In this document: in pieces, positions 8,406 through 15,655 of the stretch
Position numbering within the stretch: the first letter of the stretch is position 1
Layout: the number at the start of each line of letters is the position of its first letter
Source: an uncultured Saprospiraceae bacterium
Lineage (GTDB): Bacteria; Bacteroidota; Bacteroidia; Chitinophagales; Saprospiraceae
Assembly: GCA_937921825.1 (NCBI GenBank)
Contig: CAKZVK010000014.1
Coordinates: forward strand, 1-64,000
Direction of reading: 5' to 3'
DNA: 64,000 nt
The notes under the pieces: generated by a model
Seen by the model: only the letters and a program-made list of their open reading frames with translations
Databases searched by the model: none
What the model was told of the DNA's origin: nothing
Position numbers and translations under genes: made by a program

Positions 8406-8796
8406 GGGGCCGAATGGTATTGACAGGAAAGAATATTTATTTGTAAGCATGTTGGAGCATTGATCTATTACTCCATTAACAAATAGAGATCATAACTATA
8501 ATTGGCGACAACAGATTCGCACTAGCTGCCTAATTTAGAATTAGCATAGCAAGTTGCACTGTGTAGGAGGAAGTCTGATAGACCTACTTATCAGTGTATA
8601 ATGACCGGCATGCTTAGCGCTGCCACTTGGACTAGGAAAGTATAAGCTTCGGGTACTTTCCGAAATTTAGAAGATAAGTTGATAGTTGGTTGTTTGTACA
8701 CCTGCTTGATATCGAAAATCTAAGAACAAACTAAACATGTAGAAAGCCTATAAGTGCTTTGTCTGGACCAGAGTTCGAATCTCTGCGGCTCCACCA
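8406..8796 (+). ncRNA. ssrA: tmRNA (transfer-messenger RNA)
   Basis: The 5' end GGGGCC pairs with GGCTCC before the terminal ACCA, giving the tRNA-like acceptor stem. The 5' region reads TGG-TATTGACAGG, close to the conserved tmRNA start, and the 3' end has the T-arm GGACCAGAGTTCGAATCTC followed by an encoded CCA at 8794-8796. The internal reading frame at 8504-8530 encodes GDNRFALAA and stops at TAA (8531-8533); the ALAA end is the usual protease signal. tmRNA rescues ribosomes stalled on broken mRNA with SmpB. The length of about 391 nt is normal for a one-piece tmRNA. The pseudoknots were not folded. Confidence 0.93.
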
Positions 8797-8833: not shown

Positions 8834-8876
8834 AACTGACAAAATGAGCTTGCTCAAGTTTTGTCAGTTTTTTTTG
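8834..8876 (+). terminator. Intrinsic terminator of ssrA
   Basis: AACTGACAAAA (8834-8844) pairs perfectly with TTTTGTCAGTT (8859-8869) and is followed by a long T tract. Confidence 0.85.
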
Positions 8877-9159
8877 TTTCTGAGCAAAGCGAGGTTAGTT
8901 TCATTTTGACCTTGGGAAAGCTGAGATGGTCATAGCCAATCTCTTTCAACTCATCCCCAGCCCTTTTCTTTCAAGAGAAGGGAGCTTGTGAACGATAGAT
9001 ATTTCCAGAAAATATGAATGCATAACCGACGACTAACATGATATTTTTACAACTATTCTCCCCTTTTATAACGCATTAGAATACAAATCAGGAATTTATT
9101 CTGAGGCTGATTGGCTTAATTCAATAACTTTACTTTAATTTGAGTTACTAAAGAAAAAA
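8877..9159. other. Intergenic stretch between ssrA and the trp leader, nothing recognised
   Basis: About 280 bp without a supported gene or RNA. It presumably contains the trp operon promoter, but no clear TTG / TAnnTTTG pair is visible; the nearest candidate near 9135-9142 lacks one spacer base. Confidence 0.4.
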
Positions 9160-9219
9160 ATGAACAGAATTACAAATACATGGTGGTGGCTAGATTCTAA
9201 ATCAGATGATTGGGATTAG
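9160..9219 (+). CDS. trpL: trp operon leader peptide
   Basis: A 19-codon ORF, too short for a standard ORF list, reads MNRITNTWWWLDSKSDDWD and ends in TAG at 9217-9219. Four of 19 residues are Trp, three of them consecutive (TGG codons at 9181-9189), which is very unlikely by chance directly upstream of trpE. An intrinsic terminator lies 29 nt after its stop codon and just before trpE. By analogy with enterobacterial trpL, scarce charged tRNA-Trp would stall the ribosome at the Trp run and alter folding of the downstream RNA. The coding content is seen; the mechanism is inferred. Confidence 0.85.
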   Translation: MNRITNTWWWLDSKSDDWD

Positions 9220-9247
9220 ATACCTATTGTATTAATATAAAATACAG

Positions 9248-9280
9248 AACGGCTTGTCGAATCTCGGCAAGCCGTTTTTT
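9248..9280 (+). terminator. trp attenuator terminator
   Basis: AACGGCTTG (9248-9256) and CAAGCCGTT (9268-9276) form a perfect 9-bp stem with an 11-nt loop and a T-tract, ending 12 bases before the trpE ATG. A competing helix is possible: GGCTAGATTC at 9188-9197, overlapping the last leader Trp codon, can pair with GAATCT (9259-9264) and AGCC (9270-9273), with a 5-nt bulge, which would occupy the terminator's 3' arm. Which fold is the antiterminator was not resolved. Confidence 0.85.
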
Positions 9281-9291
9281 TATTGCACTAT

Positions 9292-10662
9292 ATGAAGTAT
9301 ACAAATTATAAGTACTCGAAATTATCAGATCTCATTACACCACTGGGTCTTTATATGAGTCTGAGGGATAGGTTCAGCAAGGTTTTATTACTAGAAAGCT
9401 CGGACTATGCATCTAAAGAAGATAGCCAGTCCTACCTATGCTTTGATTCATTGAGCTCAATAGTTTTAGAAAATTCAATACTAAAAATAGATGGCCGTCC
9501 CAAAAGCTACGATAATATAATCACAGAAATGGAAGTATACATTTCATCATTTGTGACTGATTCAGAACCTACTAATGAAGATGGTCTCTTTGGATATTCG
9601 ACTTTTGATTGTGCTCAATATTTTGAGGATATCAAAGGCATCGAAAGTATAAAAAATGCCGACCTTCCTACCCTGAGATACGACTTCTTTAGATTCGTCA
9701 TCAAATTTGATCACTTCAGAGATACCTTAGAAATCATAGAACATTGTCCTGAAGGTGTAGCAAGCCAGATCACGGAGATTAGAAATCTAGTTAGACTACA
9801 GGACAATCAGGCTTTTAATTTTAGTCTGATCGATGATGAAAAATCAAATATCACTGACGAAGTATTTATGTCTAATGTCACTAAAGCCAAAGCACATTGC
9901 CATCGTGGTGATGTATTCCAGCTAGTGCTCTCTAGACAATATCGCCAGCGCTATAAAGGTGATGATCTTAATGTATATAGAGCTCTAAGGTCCATTAATC
10001 CCAGCCCCTATCTATTCTATTTTGATTACGGCTCTTATCGAATTTTTGGTTCTTCACCGGAAGCTCAACTTAAAGTTAGTGATGGAAAAGCAGAAATTCA
10101 TCCTATCGCTGGCACATTTAGACGGACTGGAGATCCAAGCAAAGATGCAGAGTTAGCAGAAGCCTTAGTCCATGATCCTAAAGAAAGCGCAGAACACATT
10201 ATGCTCGTAGATCTGGCCCGCAATGACCTAAGTAAGAACTGCAAGAAAGTCAGTGTATCCAGCTTTAAGGAGGTACAATATTTCAGTCACGTTATTCACT
10301 TGGTCTCTAAAGTCACAGGACACATAAAGGATGGCGTCTCTTCCTATCAAATATTTGCAGATACTTTTCCAGCCGGAACCTTAAGCGGAGCACCTAAATA
10401 CAAAGCACTACAACTCATAGATAAGTATGAAACCCAGAAGAGAAGTTTCTACGGCGGAGGAATCGGTATGTTAAGTTTCAATGGCAACCTAAATCATGCG
10501 ATTGTCATCAGATCATTTGTGAGTCGTAATAATGAATTATTCTACCAAGCTGGTGCTGGCTTAGTCATATCATCAGATGAAAGAAAAGAATTACAAGAAG
10601 TTAATAACAAATTAGCTGCACTAAAAAAAGCCTTACTTAAAGCAGAAAATTTATCAGAATGA
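9292..10662 (+). CDS. trpE: Anthranilate synthase component I
   Basis: The 456-residue TrpE converts chorismate to anthranilate using ammonia delivered by TrpG, the first committed step of tryptophan synthesis. The N-terminal part has LLLESSD, the motif of the tryptophan feedback site. The catalytic chorismate-binding domain (about residues 190-450) shows HPIAGTFRRTGDP, ESAEHIMLVDLARND, TFPAGTLSGAPK and GAGLVISSDE. The ATG at 9292 is preferred to an upstream in-frame TTG (9283) that abuts the terminator T-tract. It overlaps trpG by 4 bp (ATGA), implying translational coupling. Expression is probably attenuated through trpL upstream. Confidence 0.95.
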   Translation: MKYTNYKYSKLSDLITPLGLYMSLRDRFSKVLLLESSDYASKEDSQSYLCFDSLSSIVLENSILKIDGRPKSYDNIITEMEVYISSFVTDSEPTNEDGLFGYSTFDCAQYFEDIKGIESIKNADLPTLRYDFFRFVIKFDHFRDTLEIIEHCPEGVASQITEIRNLVRLQDNQAFNFSLIDDEKSNITDEVFMSNVTKAKAHCHRGDVFQLVLSRQYRQRYKGDDLNVYRALRSINPSPYLFYFDYGSYRIFGSSPEAQLKVSDGKAEIHPIAGTFRRTGDPSKDAELAEALVHDPKESAEHIMLVDLARNDLSKNCKKVSVSSFKEVQYFSHVIHLVSKVTGHIKDGVSSYQIFADTFPAGTLSGAPKYKALQLIDKYETQKRSFYGGGIGMLSFNGNLNHAIVIRSFVSRNNELFYQAGAGLVISSDERKELQEVNNKLAALKKALLKAENLSE

Positions 10663-11231
10663 AGAAGGTACTCATCATAGATAATTACGATTCGTTTACT
10701 TATAATCTAGTCCATGCTGTAGAAGATATTATAAAGCAAGCTGTCACCATTAAGAAAAATGATAAGCTGACTATAGAGGAGATAGACAACTACGATTACC
10801 TCCTATTATCTCCTGGTCCCGGGCTGCCCGATGATGCAGGATCACTGAAGCAGATTATAAAAACCTATGTAGGTAAGAAAAAGATTTTTGGCGTCTGTCT
10901 AGGCCTACAGGCTATCTCAGAAGTTTATGGTTGTAAGTTAAAAAATCTTGACCAGGTCTATCATGGGATCCAATCAGCAATAAACTTAATAGACTTATCC
11001 AGCCCAATATACAAAGGACTCAATCCTACTATTAAAGCAGGACGCTATCACTCATGGGTTATAAATGAAGAGACTCTATCGGATAAACTGAAGGTCACTG
11101 CTAGAGAAGCCAATGGTCAGATCATGTCCATAGAAGATCGAGAGCAAAACATCTTTGCAGTACAATATCATCCAGAATCAATCATGACACCTGATGGTAA
11201 TACTATACTGAGTAATTTCTTGAGTCTATAA
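10659..11231 (+). CDS. trpG: Anthranilate synthase component II, glutamine amidotransferase
   Basis: This 190-residue class I glutamine amidotransferase hydrolyses glutamine and channels ammonia to TrpE. The full family signature is present: DNYDSFTYNL at the N-terminus, LLSPGPGLPDDAG, the nucleophile Cys in FGVCLGLQ, and the His-Glu pair in QYHPESIMTPDG. It starts inside the trpE stop (ATGA overlap). In some bacteria the same subunit also serves p-aminobenzoate synthase (PabA), so a dual role is possible; its place in the trp operon makes TrpG the primary call. Confidence 0.95.
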   Translation: MKKVLIIDNYDSFTYNLVHAVEDIIKQAVTIKKNDKLTIEEIDNYDYLLLSPGPGLPDDAGSLKQIIKTYVGKKKIFGVCLGLQAISEVYGCKLKNLDQVYHGIQSAINLIDLSSPIYKGLNPTIKAGRYHSWVINEETLSDKLKVTAREANGQIMSIEDREQNIFAVQYHPESIMTPDGNTILSNFLSL

Positions 11232-11240
11232 GCACTAACT

Positions 11241-12233
11241 ATGAAAACCATTCTAAACAAACTCTTCGAGCACCAGCGACTGACTAGATCAGAAGCCAAA
11301 GAAGTGCTTATTAAGATTTCTACAGAGGAATACAATGCGTATCAGGTTGCTGCTTTTATAAGCGTATATCTTATGAGAAGTATCTCTGTGGAAGAACTTA
11401 CTGGATTTCGAGATGCACTTTTGGAACTATGCATACCTGTAGATTTCGGAGGGATGCACTCCATAGACGTTTGTGGAACAGGTGGCGATGGCAAGAACAC
11501 TTTTAATATTTCGACTTGTTCAGCTTTCGTCATAGCGGGTGCTGGTTACAAAGTGACCAAGCATGGTAACTATGGGGTATCCTCTATCTGTGGCTCTAGC
11601 AATGTATTACAACATCTTGGTTACAACTTTACCAGTAATCAAGATGTGCTCAAACGTCAAATAGACCAAGCTAATATCTGTTTTCTTCATGCCCCTTTGT
11701 TTCATCCCGCACTGAAATCGGTAGGACCTATAAGAAAGGATCTTGGTGTCAAGACCTTCTTTAACTTATTAGGACCACTGGTGAACCCTGCTAAACCGAC
11801 ACATCAACTCATAGGCGTTTTCAGTCTTAAAGTACTCAAACTATATCACTTCATTTTAGAACAGACAAGCACAAGGTATAGTATCATCCACTCATTGGAT
11901 GGATATGATGAGGTCTCACTGACAGGAGAAGTTAAGATCATTCAGAATACTCGGACACTTGTAGAGAGCCCAGGGTACTTTGGCGTAAGCACCTGTACAG
12001 CAAATGATATATGGGGAGGGAATGATGTACCTGCTGCAGCCAAAATATTTATGAACATACTTAATGGAAGTGGCACTAAGGCTCAGATGGATGTTGTATC
12101 TGTCAATGCAGGCATAGCTATCAATACCTTCAAACCAGAAATAAGTTTAGCTGACTGCATAATGGAAGCTAGACAAAGCATCCATTCTGGTGCTGCGCTC
12201 AATGCATTTCACAAATTAGTCTCTCTCTACTGA
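11241..12233 (+). CDS. trpD: Anthranilate phosphoribosyltransferase
   Basis: The 330-residue TrpD transfers phosphoribose from PRPP to anthranilate. It has the glycine-rich PRPP site VCGTGGDGKNTFNIST, the KHGNYGVSS segment that follows in the family, and the anthranilate-binding GPIRKDLGVKTFFNLLGPL region. It starts 9 bp after trpG and its stop overlaps the trpC start by one base (TGATG), so it is clearly part of one transcript. Confidence 0.95.
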   Translation: MKTILNKLFEHQRLTRSEAKEVLIKISTEEYNAYQVAAFISVYLMRSISVEELTGFRDALLELCIPVDFGGMHSIDVCGTGGDGKNTFNISTCSAFVIAGAGYKVTKHGNYGVSSICGSSNVLQHLGYNFTSNQDVLKRQIDQANICFLHAPLFHPALKSVGPIRKDLGVKTFFNLLGPLVNPAKPTHQLIGVFSLKVLKLYHFILEQTSTRYSIIHSLDGYDEVSLTGEVKIIQNTRTLVESPGYFGVSTCTANDIWGGNDVPAAAKIFMNILNGSGTKAQMDVVSVNAGIAINTFKPEISLADCIMEARQSIHSGAALNAFHKLVSLY

Positions 12234-13033
12234 TGCATATACTAGATAAAATAGTGGTTTATAAAAAGCAAGAAGTCTTAGACTTAAAAGCAAATAATTC
12301 CTACAAAAAGTTTGAACGTCGTCCAGCTTTTCACACAACTGGTCCTTCTATGAAACAAAGTATTCTAGCTCAGGACTCAGGAGGTATTATAGCAGAGTTC
12401 AAGAAAAAATCACCAAGCAAACAAGACATTAATCTATCAGCAGAGGTAATTGATGTGGTGAGCGCTTATGAAATAGCCGGTGCTAGTGGCATCTCTGTAC
12501 TGACTGATGGTCACTTCTTTGGCGGTCACTCCCAGGACTTGATACAAGCGGCTAGCACAACTAAGCTACCTGTCTTAAGGAAAGACTTTATAATTGATGA
12601 ATTCCAAATTGTAGAATCAAAATCCTTAGGCGCCTCCATTATATTACTCATCGCAAGAATACTTACCCAAGAAGAAATGAAGAGCTATACAAAGCTTGCT
12701 CATAACTTAGGAATGGAAGTCTTAGTAGAAATTCATAATCTAAAAGAGCTAGACAAATGCCCAGTAGACATGGACATTATAGGGATTAACAATCGAGACC
12801 TTGACAGCTTTGTAGTTGACTATCAAAGGTCTATCGCTTTGATGAATCAATTGCCAGAGGACCTTTGCAGAATCTCAGAAAGTGGTATCCATAATACAGA
12901 GGTAATGATAGAGCTCAGAAAGGCAGGATTTGATGGTTTCCTCATAGGAGAACTTTTTATGAGGGAGAGCCTACCCGGAATTGCATGCCAAAGATTAATA
13001 GCCGAGTACAAAGCTAAATTACAACTAGGATGA
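12233..13033 (+). CDS. trpC: Indole-3-glycerol phosphate synthase
   Basis: The 266-residue TIM-barrel enzyme closes the indole ring from carboxyphenylaminodeoxyribulose phosphate. Key motifs are IIAEFKKKSPSK (catalytic Lys near the first strand), SVLTDGHFFGG, VLRKDFIIDEFQI, LVEIHN, GINNRDL and SESGI for phosphate binding. It is monofunctional: TrpF is a separate gene that starts within its stop codon (4-bp overlap). Confidence 0.95.
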   Translation: MHILDKIVVYKKQEVLDLKANNSYKKFERRPAFHTTGPSMKQSILAQDSGGIIAEFKKKSPSKQDINLSAEVIDVVSAYEIAGASGISVLTDGHFFGGHSQDLIQAASTTKLPVLRKDFIIDEFQIVESKSLGASIILLIARILTQEEMKSYTKLAHNLGMEVLVEIHNLKELDKCPVDMDIIGINNRDLDSFVVDYQRSIALMNQLPEDLCRISESGIHNTEVMIELRKAGFDGFLIGELFMRESLPGIACQRLIAEYKAKLQLG

Positions 13034-13650
13034 AAGTAAAAGTTTGTGGAATGGTTGATCCAGATAATCTCAATTTAGCAAGCAGCCTAGATATAGACTT
13101 TGTTGGGTATAACTTTTATCCAGCCTCCAAAAGATATGTGGACACTACATCAAAAATTTCACAAGTTCTTTTAGAGGAAAGAATAAAAAAAGTTGGAGTA
13201 TTTGTCAATGCTTCATCAGCAACAATAGAAGCAACCCAGGTAAAGTTCGATCTAGATTATATACAACTACATGGCGATGAGTCTGTAGCATTTACCGAAA
13301 GTGTAGCAAAAAATACAGCTGTGATAAAGGTCTTCAGGATATCTGAAAACTTCGATTTCCAAGTTACGACAGGATATCAATCAGCACAATATTTTCTCTT
13401 TGATACTTATACAAAAGACTACGGTGGTTCAGGTAAAAGATTTGACTGGCGACTACTTGATGAGTACACAGGCGATACACCTTTCTTTCTTGCTGGAGGA
13501 ATCTCCCCTGATGACCTACCTGCACTGAGAAAAATAAGTCACCCAAAGTTTATTGGTATTGATATCAATAGTGGATTTGAGCTTAGTCCAGGGATAAAAA
13601 ACATAGCTACGATCAACAAATTTATAAGTGAATTAAAATCCGACATATGA
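13030..13650 (+). CDS. trpF: Phosphoribosylanthranilate isomerase
   Basis: The 206-residue TIM-barrel isomerase begins [12 protein letters not shown], where the Cys is the catalytic base of the family. It continues with [24 protein letters not shown], an Asp general acid in [18 protein letters not shown], and FLAGGIS with GIDINSGFE at the phosphate site. It overlaps trpC and trpB by 4 bp each. The second position of the first motif is usually Ile (KICG or KVCG), so the match is canonical. Confidence 0.94.
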
Positions 13651-14843
13651 GTTACGAGATAGACCCAAGAGGATACTATGGAGAATACGGCGGCGCCTAT
13701 ATCCCTGAGATGCTGCATGCTAACATTGAAGAACTCAGATCCCAATACCAGGAAATCATGGCTGACCCGTCCTTTCAAAAGGAGTATAATACGCTACTCA
13801 GAAACTATGTAGGCCGTCCATCACCCCTATATTTAGCACCTAGGCTTTCTGCCAAACACGGAGGTAAAATTTATCTCAAACGAGAAGACCTCAATCATAC
13901 CGGAGCCCACAAAATTAATAATACAATAGGCCAGATCTTAGTAGCAAAAAGACTCCATAAAACTAGAATAATAGCAGAAACAGGAGCTGGTCAGCATGGC
14001 GTCGCAACAGCTACTGTCTGTGCACTTATGAACTTAGAATGTGTCGTCTACATGGGAAGTACCGACATTGAAAGACAAGCACCTAACGTCGCTCGAATGA
14101 AAATGTTAGGTGCTAAAGTAAGACCTGCTACCAGTGGGAGCCAGACTCTAAAGGACGCTACAAATGAAGCTATACGAGACTGGATTAATAATCCTCATGA
14201 TACACATTACATTATCGGTTCTGTCGTAGGTCCTCACCCCTATCCTGATATGGTGGCAAAGTTCCAAGCGATTATAAGTCAAGAAACTAAACAACAATTA
14301 CTAGAACAAGAAGGCCGAGAAAACCCTGACTACTTACTGGCCTGTGTCGGGGGTGGTAGCAATGCCGCCGGGCTTGTCTACCATTACTTAGATCAGAATG
14401 ACGTTAAAATCATTCTTGCAGAAGCAGCTGGTAAAGGTGTGCATAGTGGTCACTCTGCAGCAACTAGCATCTTAGGGAGCTTAGGTATTATACATGGCAG
14501 CAAAACGTTACTCATGCAAGACAAGGATGGTCAGATCATAGAGCCTTATTCGATTTCAGCTGGACTAGATTATCCCGGAATAGGCCCATTACTTGCCCAC
14601 TTAATTTCATCGAAACGTGCCAAGGTTTATAGTGCAACTGACCAAGAGGCCCTTGAAGCAGCAATAGAACTATCTAGATATGAAGGGATTATCCCTGCTC
14701 TCGAAACAGCACATGCACTAGCCGTACTGCCCCATCTAAATCTTAAGACTGATGAGATAGTTGTATTAAATCTTTCTGGGAGAGGAGACAAAGATCTAGA
14801 TACCTATATAGACAATATTGATACAAGGTCCAATTTCCAATAG
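13647..14843 (+). CDS. trpB: Tryptophan synthase beta subunit
   Basis: This 398-residue PLP enzyme condenses indole with serine. The PLP lysine lies in [25 protein letters not shown] follows, and the phosphate-binding loop is [10 protein letters not shown]. The N-terminal [15 protein letters not shown] and ETAHAL near the C-terminus are typical TrpB1. It partners with TrpA encoded 35 bp downstream, where the gap is slightly wider than elsewhere in the operon but no terminator is visible. Confidence 0.96.
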
Positions 14844-14878
14844 AGGGTTACGATATACCAACAACTAACTAAGACCAC

Positions 14879-15655
14879 ATGAATAGAATAGAACAATTGT
14901 TCTCTAGAAAAAAAGAAAACATCCTGAATATATATACGACTGCTGGTTATCCTAAACTCCATGACACCGTAGAAATTGTATTGGCACTAGAGCAAGCAGG
15001 AACGGATATCATAGAGCTAGGAATGCCTTACTCTGACCCTATGGCAGATGGTGAAACTATCCAATACAGTAGCGCCAAGGCCCTTGCGAATGGAATGCAC
15101 CTCGACTTACTATTCGAACAAGTAAAAGAAATAAGATTAAAAAGTGAGATACCAATTGTCCTAATGGGATATCTCAATCAAATGATCCAGTACGGTCAAA
15201 GTAGATTCTTAAGTGCCTGTTCTGACTCAGGTGTAGATGCCCTCATTATTCCCGACCTCCCTATGGATATTTATGAAGAGGACTATCAAGAAAAAATGAA
15301 AAGTCATGGTATAGGAATCTCATTTTTAGTAACTCCACAAACTTCAGAGGAGAGATTGTACAAGGCAGATACGCTGAGTAGTGCTTTTCTCTATGTGGTC
15401 TCCCAATCTAGTATTACTGGCAATAATAAAAACATCAAGAATGACCAGCTCCAATACTTTGAGAGACTTGCTCGTCTTAACTTGTCTGCACCTAGACTTG
15501 TAGGTTTCGGTATTCATGATAGAAGCACTTATGAGACTGCCTGTAATTTTGCCAATGGTGCCATTATCGGTTCCGAGTTTATCCGTCAACTAAGAAGTTC
15601 TGAAGATCTGACAGCAACAATTTTAAGTTTTATTGCTACATTAAAAAGTTCATAA
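14879..15655 (+). CDS. trpA: Tryptophan synthase alpha subunit
   Basis: The 258-residue TIM barrel splits indole-3-glycerol phosphate and passes indole to TrpB. The catalytic Glu is in IIELGMPYSDPMADG and the catalytic Asp is in the same motif. VDALIIPDLP and a VGFGIHD loop follow. The usual glycine-rich phosphate loop after SITG is shortened to SITGNNKN, as often seen in Bacteroidota. It is the last gene of the trp operon, and no obvious terminator separates it from the convergent DUF3185 gene 41 bp away. Confidence 0.94.
   Translation: MNRIEQLFSRKKENILNIYTTAGYPKLHDTVEIVLALEQAGTDIIELGMPYSDPMADGETIQYSSAKALANGMHLDLLFEQVKEIRLKSEIPIVLMGYLNQMIQYGQSRFLSACSDSGVDALIIPDLPMDIYEEDYQEKMKSHGIGISFLVTPQTSEERLYKADTLSSAFLYVVSQSSITGNNKNIKNDQLQYFERLARLNLSAPRLVGFGIHDRSTYETACNFANGAIIGSEFIRQLRSSEDLTATILSFIATLKSS

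Follow-up and report, generated by a model that had tools for sequence, protein, structure and literature searches.

Within the window, a stretch of 64,000 nucleotides from an uncultured Saprospiraceae bacterium, a complete trp operon (trpEGDCFBA) occupies positions 9292-15655, directly 3' of a short leader open reading frame (ORF) and an intrinsic terminator. The leader ORF has the 19 residues and four Trp codons, three of them consecutive, given in the original prediction; the Trp codons start at 9181, 9184, 9187 and 9211, and the stop codon at 9217. A tmRNA gene lies upstream of the leader at 8406-8796; visual inspection shows that this unit ends in a hairpin with a T run of its own (about 8834-8876), unlisted by the automatic terminator scan. 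The features of the locus are the following.

9135-9142, + strand: putative -7 promoter element TTAATTTG, a 5/6 match to TAnnTTTG (motif scan)
9160-9219, + strand: leader peptide ORF MNRITNTWWWLDSKSDDWD, 19 codons, stop TAG (sequence)
9175-9233, + strand: protector hairpin 1:2 (fold and permutations; modelled in RF01692)
9181-9189, + strand: three consecutive Trp codons (sequence), the putative regulatory stall site
9211-9213, + strand: fourth Trp codon, overlapping antiterminator strand 2 (sequence and masked fold)
9212-9265, + strand: antiterminator 2:3 (masked partial-transcript folds; covariation in relatives)
9246-9282, + strand: intrinsic terminator 3:4, stem 9246-9260:9264-9278 with a T tail to 9282 (terminator scan, fold, covariation)
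9292-10662, + strand: trpE, first structural gene of the operon (TIGR00564, E 8e-117, 391 bits, below the model's curated cut-off)
10659-11231, + strand: trpG (TIGR00566)
11241-12233, + strand: trpD (TIGR01245)
12233-13033, + strand: trpC (NF001377)
13030-13650, + strand: trpF (NF002298, below cut-off)
13647-14843, + strand: trpB (TIGR00263)
14879-15655, + strand: trpA (TIGR00262)

The terminator stem (9246-9278) consists of 15 pairs, seven of them G-C, around a 3-nt loop and is followed by T up to 9282. A terminator ahead of trpE had been predicted at a distance of 12 bases; the terminator is there, and the trpE ATG (9292) lies 13 nt after its stem. In total, two terminator-like sites were found on the two strands of an 801-nt stretch, against 0.2 expected in shuffles, and the folding of the RNA from 9150 to 9291 lies 4.6 standard deviations below shuffles. 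The motif scan predicts a transcription start at about 9147, which would give the leader ORF a 13-nt 5' UTR. TrpE is 69% identical to that of L077 (Saprospiraceae), the nearest relative with a name.

Conservation of the leader before trp genes

We defined the leader pattern as a short ORF with at least two Trp residues in a run, followed by an intrinsic terminator, and searched for it upstream of trpE in two sets of relatives. Set 1, drawn from the source family and order, comprises 76 of 78 strong TrpE matches (30 loci and 46 fetched stretches), the partial G051 and G087 being left out. Set 2 comprises 89 genomes examined of at least 290 with a TrpE match, down to about E 4e-80, with more distant TrpE outside the sample.

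Absence of the leader peptide and terminator from relatives had been named as evidence that would speak against the original prediction; both are kept in 70/76 upstreams of set 1 and in 82/89 of the wider phylum sample (54/57 from the same class and 28/32 from other classes). The proposed comparison of leaders among relatives also bore fruit, with the Trp codons kept in 152 of the 165 upstreams and compensatory changes in the terminator and antiterminator. Six dinucleotide shuffles yielded the pattern in 0, 0, 1, 0, 2 and 1 of 165 upstreams, and the pattern with at least three Trp residues, present in 129/165, was found in none of the six. Runs with at least three Trp residues occur in 58 of the 70 leaders of set 1 and 71 of the 82 of set 2. 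In the median leader, 8-9 codons precede the Trp run, whose last Trp codon lies 30 nt from the end of the stop codon and 56-60 nt from the terminator. Before trpE, WWW or WWRW leaders are present at all four loci L077-L080 (Saprospiraceae, Bacteroidetes, Bacteroidia and Bacteroidales).

These counts bear on the alternative of chance, namely that a random Trp-rich ORF happens to lie next to an ordinary terminator, for instance one at the end of the upstream tmRNA unit. A lone short ORF is indeed weak evidence, and a tmRNA gene is located upstream; nevertheless, the recurrence of the pattern in 152/165 upstreams against 0-2 in shuffles, the covariation described below, and the hairpin and T run that the tmRNA unit has for itself make the probability of such a coincidence negligible.

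The amino acid of the leader matches the pathway specifically. Upstream of hisG, a His-run leader with a terminator is present in 17/22 cases and a Trp-run one in 0/22, and a His-run leader is found in 1/76 trpE upstreams. Rfam, at gathering score, returned no leader family in the 15 hisG loci (of 22) that were searched, and the His-run leaders among loci L124-L145 are probably unannotated his attenuators. HisG itself was found in only 22/60 genomes searched, with none in the source genome (96.5% complete); genomes that lack it, including the source genome, possibly belong to histidine auxotrophs.

Eleven of the 13 upstreams that missed the pattern were scanned further upstream, with L021 and L041 outside that scan. 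Five of the 13 carry a leader at a greater distance. In L030 (G128), the leader MIQNTKNTWWWHIQT with a hairpin and T run, which matches RF01692 at 48.1 bits, precedes trpS, followed by trpE, about 1.4 kb before the latter. Three trpB-trpE loci (rows L191, L201 and L203; L239, L240 and L241) have a WWW or WW leader with a terminator ahead of trpB, also about 1.4 kb before trpE, and L032 has a Trp-run leader about 600 nt before trpE. No Trp leader with a terminator was found within about 4 kb of trpE in L059, L066, L188, L214, L215 and L226. The same 4-kb scan produced one chance hit, a Trp-run ORF with a hairpin inside a long ORF of L235. Overall, the element is present in 157/165 cases; of the eight without a leader, six were scanned to about 4 kb. 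Because leaders among the misses stand before trpS-trpE or trpB-trpE, the attenuator goes with the head of the trp transcription unit, also when the gene order changes.

Two loci, L050 (G010, same genus) and L071 (G083, same family), contain two complete WWW leaders and two terminators in series before trpE, with predicted pairing between the end of each leader and the terminator that follows it (energies of -18.9 and -11.6 in the former, -9.7 and -15.0 in the latter). By sequence, these look like tandem trp attenuators. A further tandem candidate is L177, with a WWTW ORF that has its own hairpin. L067 was rejected as a tandem, with no Trp-Trp in the first ORF, and so was L216, in which the second frame uses the same terminator. 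About 160-245 bases before trpE, L034 has one WWW leader, two terminator-like hairpins in series and a run of N.

Alternative helices and their covariation

Three structures can be drawn for the leader RNA. The folded protector consists of helices 9175-9180:9228-9233, 9185-9188:9221-9224, 9190-9191:9218-9219 and 9193-9200:9210-9217. In masked folds, the antiterminator includes three helices in competition with the terminator: 9212-9217:9260-9265, 9219-9222:9255-9258 and 9223-9224:9251-9252. Within the antiterminator lies an inner hairpin, 9227-9233:9241-9247, that is largely compatible with the terminator. In the masked folds this hairpin, or most of it, is found together with the terminator and also when the ribosome sits at the stop codon, and therefore would not itself be the deciding switch.

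We compared pairing energies of leader segments within each genome with those of segments exchanged between genomes in 5000 permutations, using 79 of the 82 leaders in set 2 (three of the source genome's own family were left out). The permutations, like the covariation tests below, are uncorrected for relatedness; set 2 repeats the permutation result in other families. The ORF end with the first bases past the stop codon pairs with the terminator hairpin of its own genome at a mean of -20.9, against -16.0 after swapping (sd 0.39, 0/5000, n=70), in set 1, and at -17.4 against -13.0 (sd 0.33, 0/5000, n=79) in set 2. Likewise, for the segment before the Trp run and its own spacer before the terminator, that is, the protector, 0/5000 permutations were as good in both sets. 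The controls were not all clean: the ORF end against the spacer gave 4879/5000 in set 1 but 26/5000 in set 2, the pre-Trp segment against the terminator 307 and 341 of 5000, the Trp run against the spacer 431/5000, and the spacer against the terminator 1141/5000. Yet these are weak beside the 0/5000 of the protector and the antiterminator. In the leader at 9160-9291 itself, the antiterminator duplex has an energy of -11.9, and 64 of the 69 remaining leaders of set 1 form a stronger one.

Covariation was assessed on alignment A1, which holds 45 of the 70 leaders (48 passed the spacing filter, and L052, L070 and L071 were then left out). The terminator stem is 97.3% paired across the 45 leaders, with changes on both sides at 13/15 pairs. 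For the antiterminator, 68.2% of positions are paired against 62.8 in shuffles (0/500 reach this value), and the covariation score is 0.267 against 0.187 (sd 0.011, 0/500); both-side changes occur at 14/17 pairs, a number reached by 15/500 shuffles. Helix 4 of the antiterminator is only 49.5% paired in A1, in which the spacer is poorly aligned and the pairing partners move from one lineage to another. Judged from these alignments, both alternative helices, antiterminator and terminator, co-vary.

The competing helix originally proposed, 9188-9197:9259-9273, was rejected. Its complementarity is present and part of it forms in one model fold, without support across relatives: with partners exchanged between genomes, the Trp run paired at least as well with the terminator in 3397/5000 permutations in set 1 (no effect) and in 5000/5000 in set 2 (the opposite effect), and on A1 the covariation score of this helix was reached by 53/500 shuffles and its paired percentage by 116/500. 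That helix had led to the suggestion that the geometry might differ from that of E. coli. The supported antiterminator instead draws on the last part of the ORF (from 9212), and a ribosome stalled on any WWW codon leaves this part free, so the geometry is E. coli-like.

The effect of the ribosome was modelled by folding transcripts that end just past the terminator loop with the ribosome footprint masked, the footprint sizes being assumed. At least five expected antiterminator pairs were obtained in 69/70 leaders of set 1 with the ribosome on the Trp run, in 3/70 with the ribosome at the stop codon, and in 23/70 without a ribosome; the corresponding counts in the phylum set were 75/82, 12/82 and 27/82. 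As judged by folding and covariation, then, the antiterminator behaves like that of a ribosome-mediated trp attenuator: a ribosome on the regulatory codons leaves it free, and one at the stop masks it. For the leader at 9160-9291, the expected numbers of antiterminator pairs are 13.1, 0.6 and 10.6 in the same three states. In this model the protector is not decisive in this leader, because the truncated transcript forms the antiterminator without any ribosome. In folds of the full-length transcript, the terminator prevails whichever of the three states is assumed (P about 0.95), so that the switch must be kinetic, decided during RNA synthesis. Attenuation of the E. coli trp operon is likewise decided while the RNA is being made.

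In masked folds of the same leader, the competing helices appear whichever WWW codon occupies the A site and are absent when the fourth Trp codon does. Because 22 nt separate the last WWW codon from the antiterminator strand, a ribosome on WWW would leave strand 2 uncovered. The fourth Trp codon (9211-9213) is probably not a regulatory codon, since it overlaps strand 2 and a ribosome positioned on it abolishes the competing helices in the model.

Probable tryptophan sensing by the leader

We interpret the element as a ribosome-mediated transcription attenuator of the trp operon with the classical three-structure logic, at a probability of about 0.93. With conservation, covariation and a match to RF01692 at hand, the original idea of a trp attenuator with a WWW leader peptide in a member of the Bacteroidota is borne out. 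From these data we infer translation of the leader ORF, stalling, the direction of regulation and its timing relative to RNA polymerase. When charged tRNA-Trp is ample, the ribosome would pass WWW and reach the stop codon at 9217, where it would cover strand 2 (from 9212), and the terminator (9246-9282) would end transcription. When charged tRNA-Trp is scarce, the ribosome would stall on 9181-9189 and cover strand 1; the freed strand 2 would then pair with 9251-9265, that is, the 5' arm and loop of the terminator, before the 3' arm is made. With the antiterminator formed, RNA polymerase would continue into trpE. Thus, the bacterium very probably reads into its trp genes only when tryptophan is short.

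A terminator switch could, in principle, answer to another sensor, since trp genes in other phyla are regulated via a TRAP-like protein, a T-box or the Trp repressor. Among 40 genomes including the source genome (96.5% complete), the TRAP family PF02081 was found in 0/40, with the control found in B. subtilis. TrpR (PF01371) was found in 3/40 genomes at E<=0.001 and in 1/40 over the cut-off, with none in the source genome, and no T-box family appeared when 9100-9300 was matched to Rfam at E up to 5. None of the three systems is known to need a conserved WWW ORF. Control of the terminator by such a sensor is therefore very improbable.

The leader peptide or the terminated leader RNA might also act in trans, besides cis attenuation or instead of it, as in the precedent of peTrpL and rnTrpL of Sinorhizobium meliloti (PMC7298713). 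By eye, the peptide outside the Trp run varies greatly between genomes, which argues against a conserved peptide function, and we consider action in trans unlikely.

The phylum does not rely on Shine-Dalgarno (SD) initiation; in Flavobacterium psychrophilum, the -7 box TAnnTTTG is located at -12 to -5, and 5.5% of mRNAs are leaderless (PMC9723704). We tallied boxes with at least 5/6 matches before 67/70 leaders of set 1 and 82/82 of set 2. A box ending exactly 4 nt before the leader ATG, so that the start would fall on the A of the ATG, was found in 12/67 leaders of set 1 (base-shuffle mean 0.9, max 4) and 7/82 of set 2 (mean 1.4, max 5). Boxes ending 4-7 nt before the ATG number 24/67 (mean 3.4, max 8) and 36/82 (mean 5.0, max 11). 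In many relatives the transcript is thus predicted to begin no more than 3 nt from the leader ATG, or on it.

To a broader picture we give slightly less than even odds. A classical, coupling-dependent trp attenuator would be ancestral to the phylum and nearly universal in it despite SD-independent initiation; in many lineages the leader ORF would begin no more than 3 nt from the transcription start, or on it, with ribosomes loading as the RNA emerges; some lineages would stack two attenuators in series, and the element would follow the head of the trp unit (before trpS or trpB). If this is true, the leader offers a natural readout of how closely transcription and translation are coupled in Bacteroidota. 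Working attenuation would require ribosomes to trail RNA polymerase closely on the leader in an SD-independent phylum, and the leaders make that testable.

Relation to known trp leaders

The switch is real and well conserved, but its type has already been described in the phylum. The closest known relative is RF01692, Bacteroid-trp ('Bacteroidete tryptophan peptide leader RNA'), the full model length of which (1-131) aligns to 9140-9258. The two share the phylum, the place before trp genes, the Trp leader peptide, the 1:2 hairpin and the start of the terminator arm GGCUUGUC, and the leader conforms to the description of the family, in which a Trp leader peptide hairpin precedes trp genes of Bacteroidota. 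The score of 47.1 bits (E 7e-5 for 241 bases, 2.7e-4 genome-wide) falls 1.9 short of the curated gathering score of 49, and automatic annotation would therefore miss this leader. By the Rfam rule it is formally outside RF01692, yet in the models it works like a member and stands in the same place.

The family's existence answers the doubt, raised in the original prediction, as to how far trp attenuation is described in this phylum. The source of the Bacteroid-trp motif is Weinberg et al. 2010 (PMC2864571, Table 1), and a 2019 paper places it upstream of the F. psychrophilum trp operon, drawing a comparison to the leader of E. coli (PMC6414381). A survey from 2010 states that, to its authors' knowledge, leader peptide systems were unproven outside Proteobacteria and Actinobacteria (PMC2965389). 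In the literature searched, with subscription papers mostly outside its scope, we found no account of the antiterminator, the phylum-wide reach, or leaderless or tandem trp leaders in Bacteroidota.

As printed, the RF01692 model contains base pairs only for the 1:2 hairpin and none for the terminator or antiterminator; the present analysis adds covariation support for the antiterminator half that the model lacks. A search of 148 relatives with RF01692 gave six matches at E<=0.001 and one over the cut-off, the filters losing some weak matches, and Rfam at gathering score gave one RF01692 match in 12 trpE-upstream loci. This type of leader, recognised by its architecture in 70/76 trpE upstreams of set 1, is far more widespread than RF01692 reveals, and many copies are probably unannotated.

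The E. coli trpL attenuator (RF00513) gave no match in 9100-9300 at E up to 5 in Rfam. The logic is nonetheless alike: in E. coli, as in the mechanism proposed here, the regulatory Trp codons are part of strand 1 or adjoin it, a ribosome that has reached the stop codon masks strand 2, and the 2:3 and 3:4 structures are mutually exclusive. Unlike in E. coli, strand 2 here begins inside the ORF and pairs with the loop and 5' arm of the terminator, and there are three consecutive Trp codons. The S. meliloti trpL transcript begins directly with the start codon of the leader (PMC7298713), and many of the relatives analysed here likewise have a predicted start on or close to theirs, whereas the leader at 9160-9219 differs from S. 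meliloti trpL in its predicted 13-nt 5' UTR.
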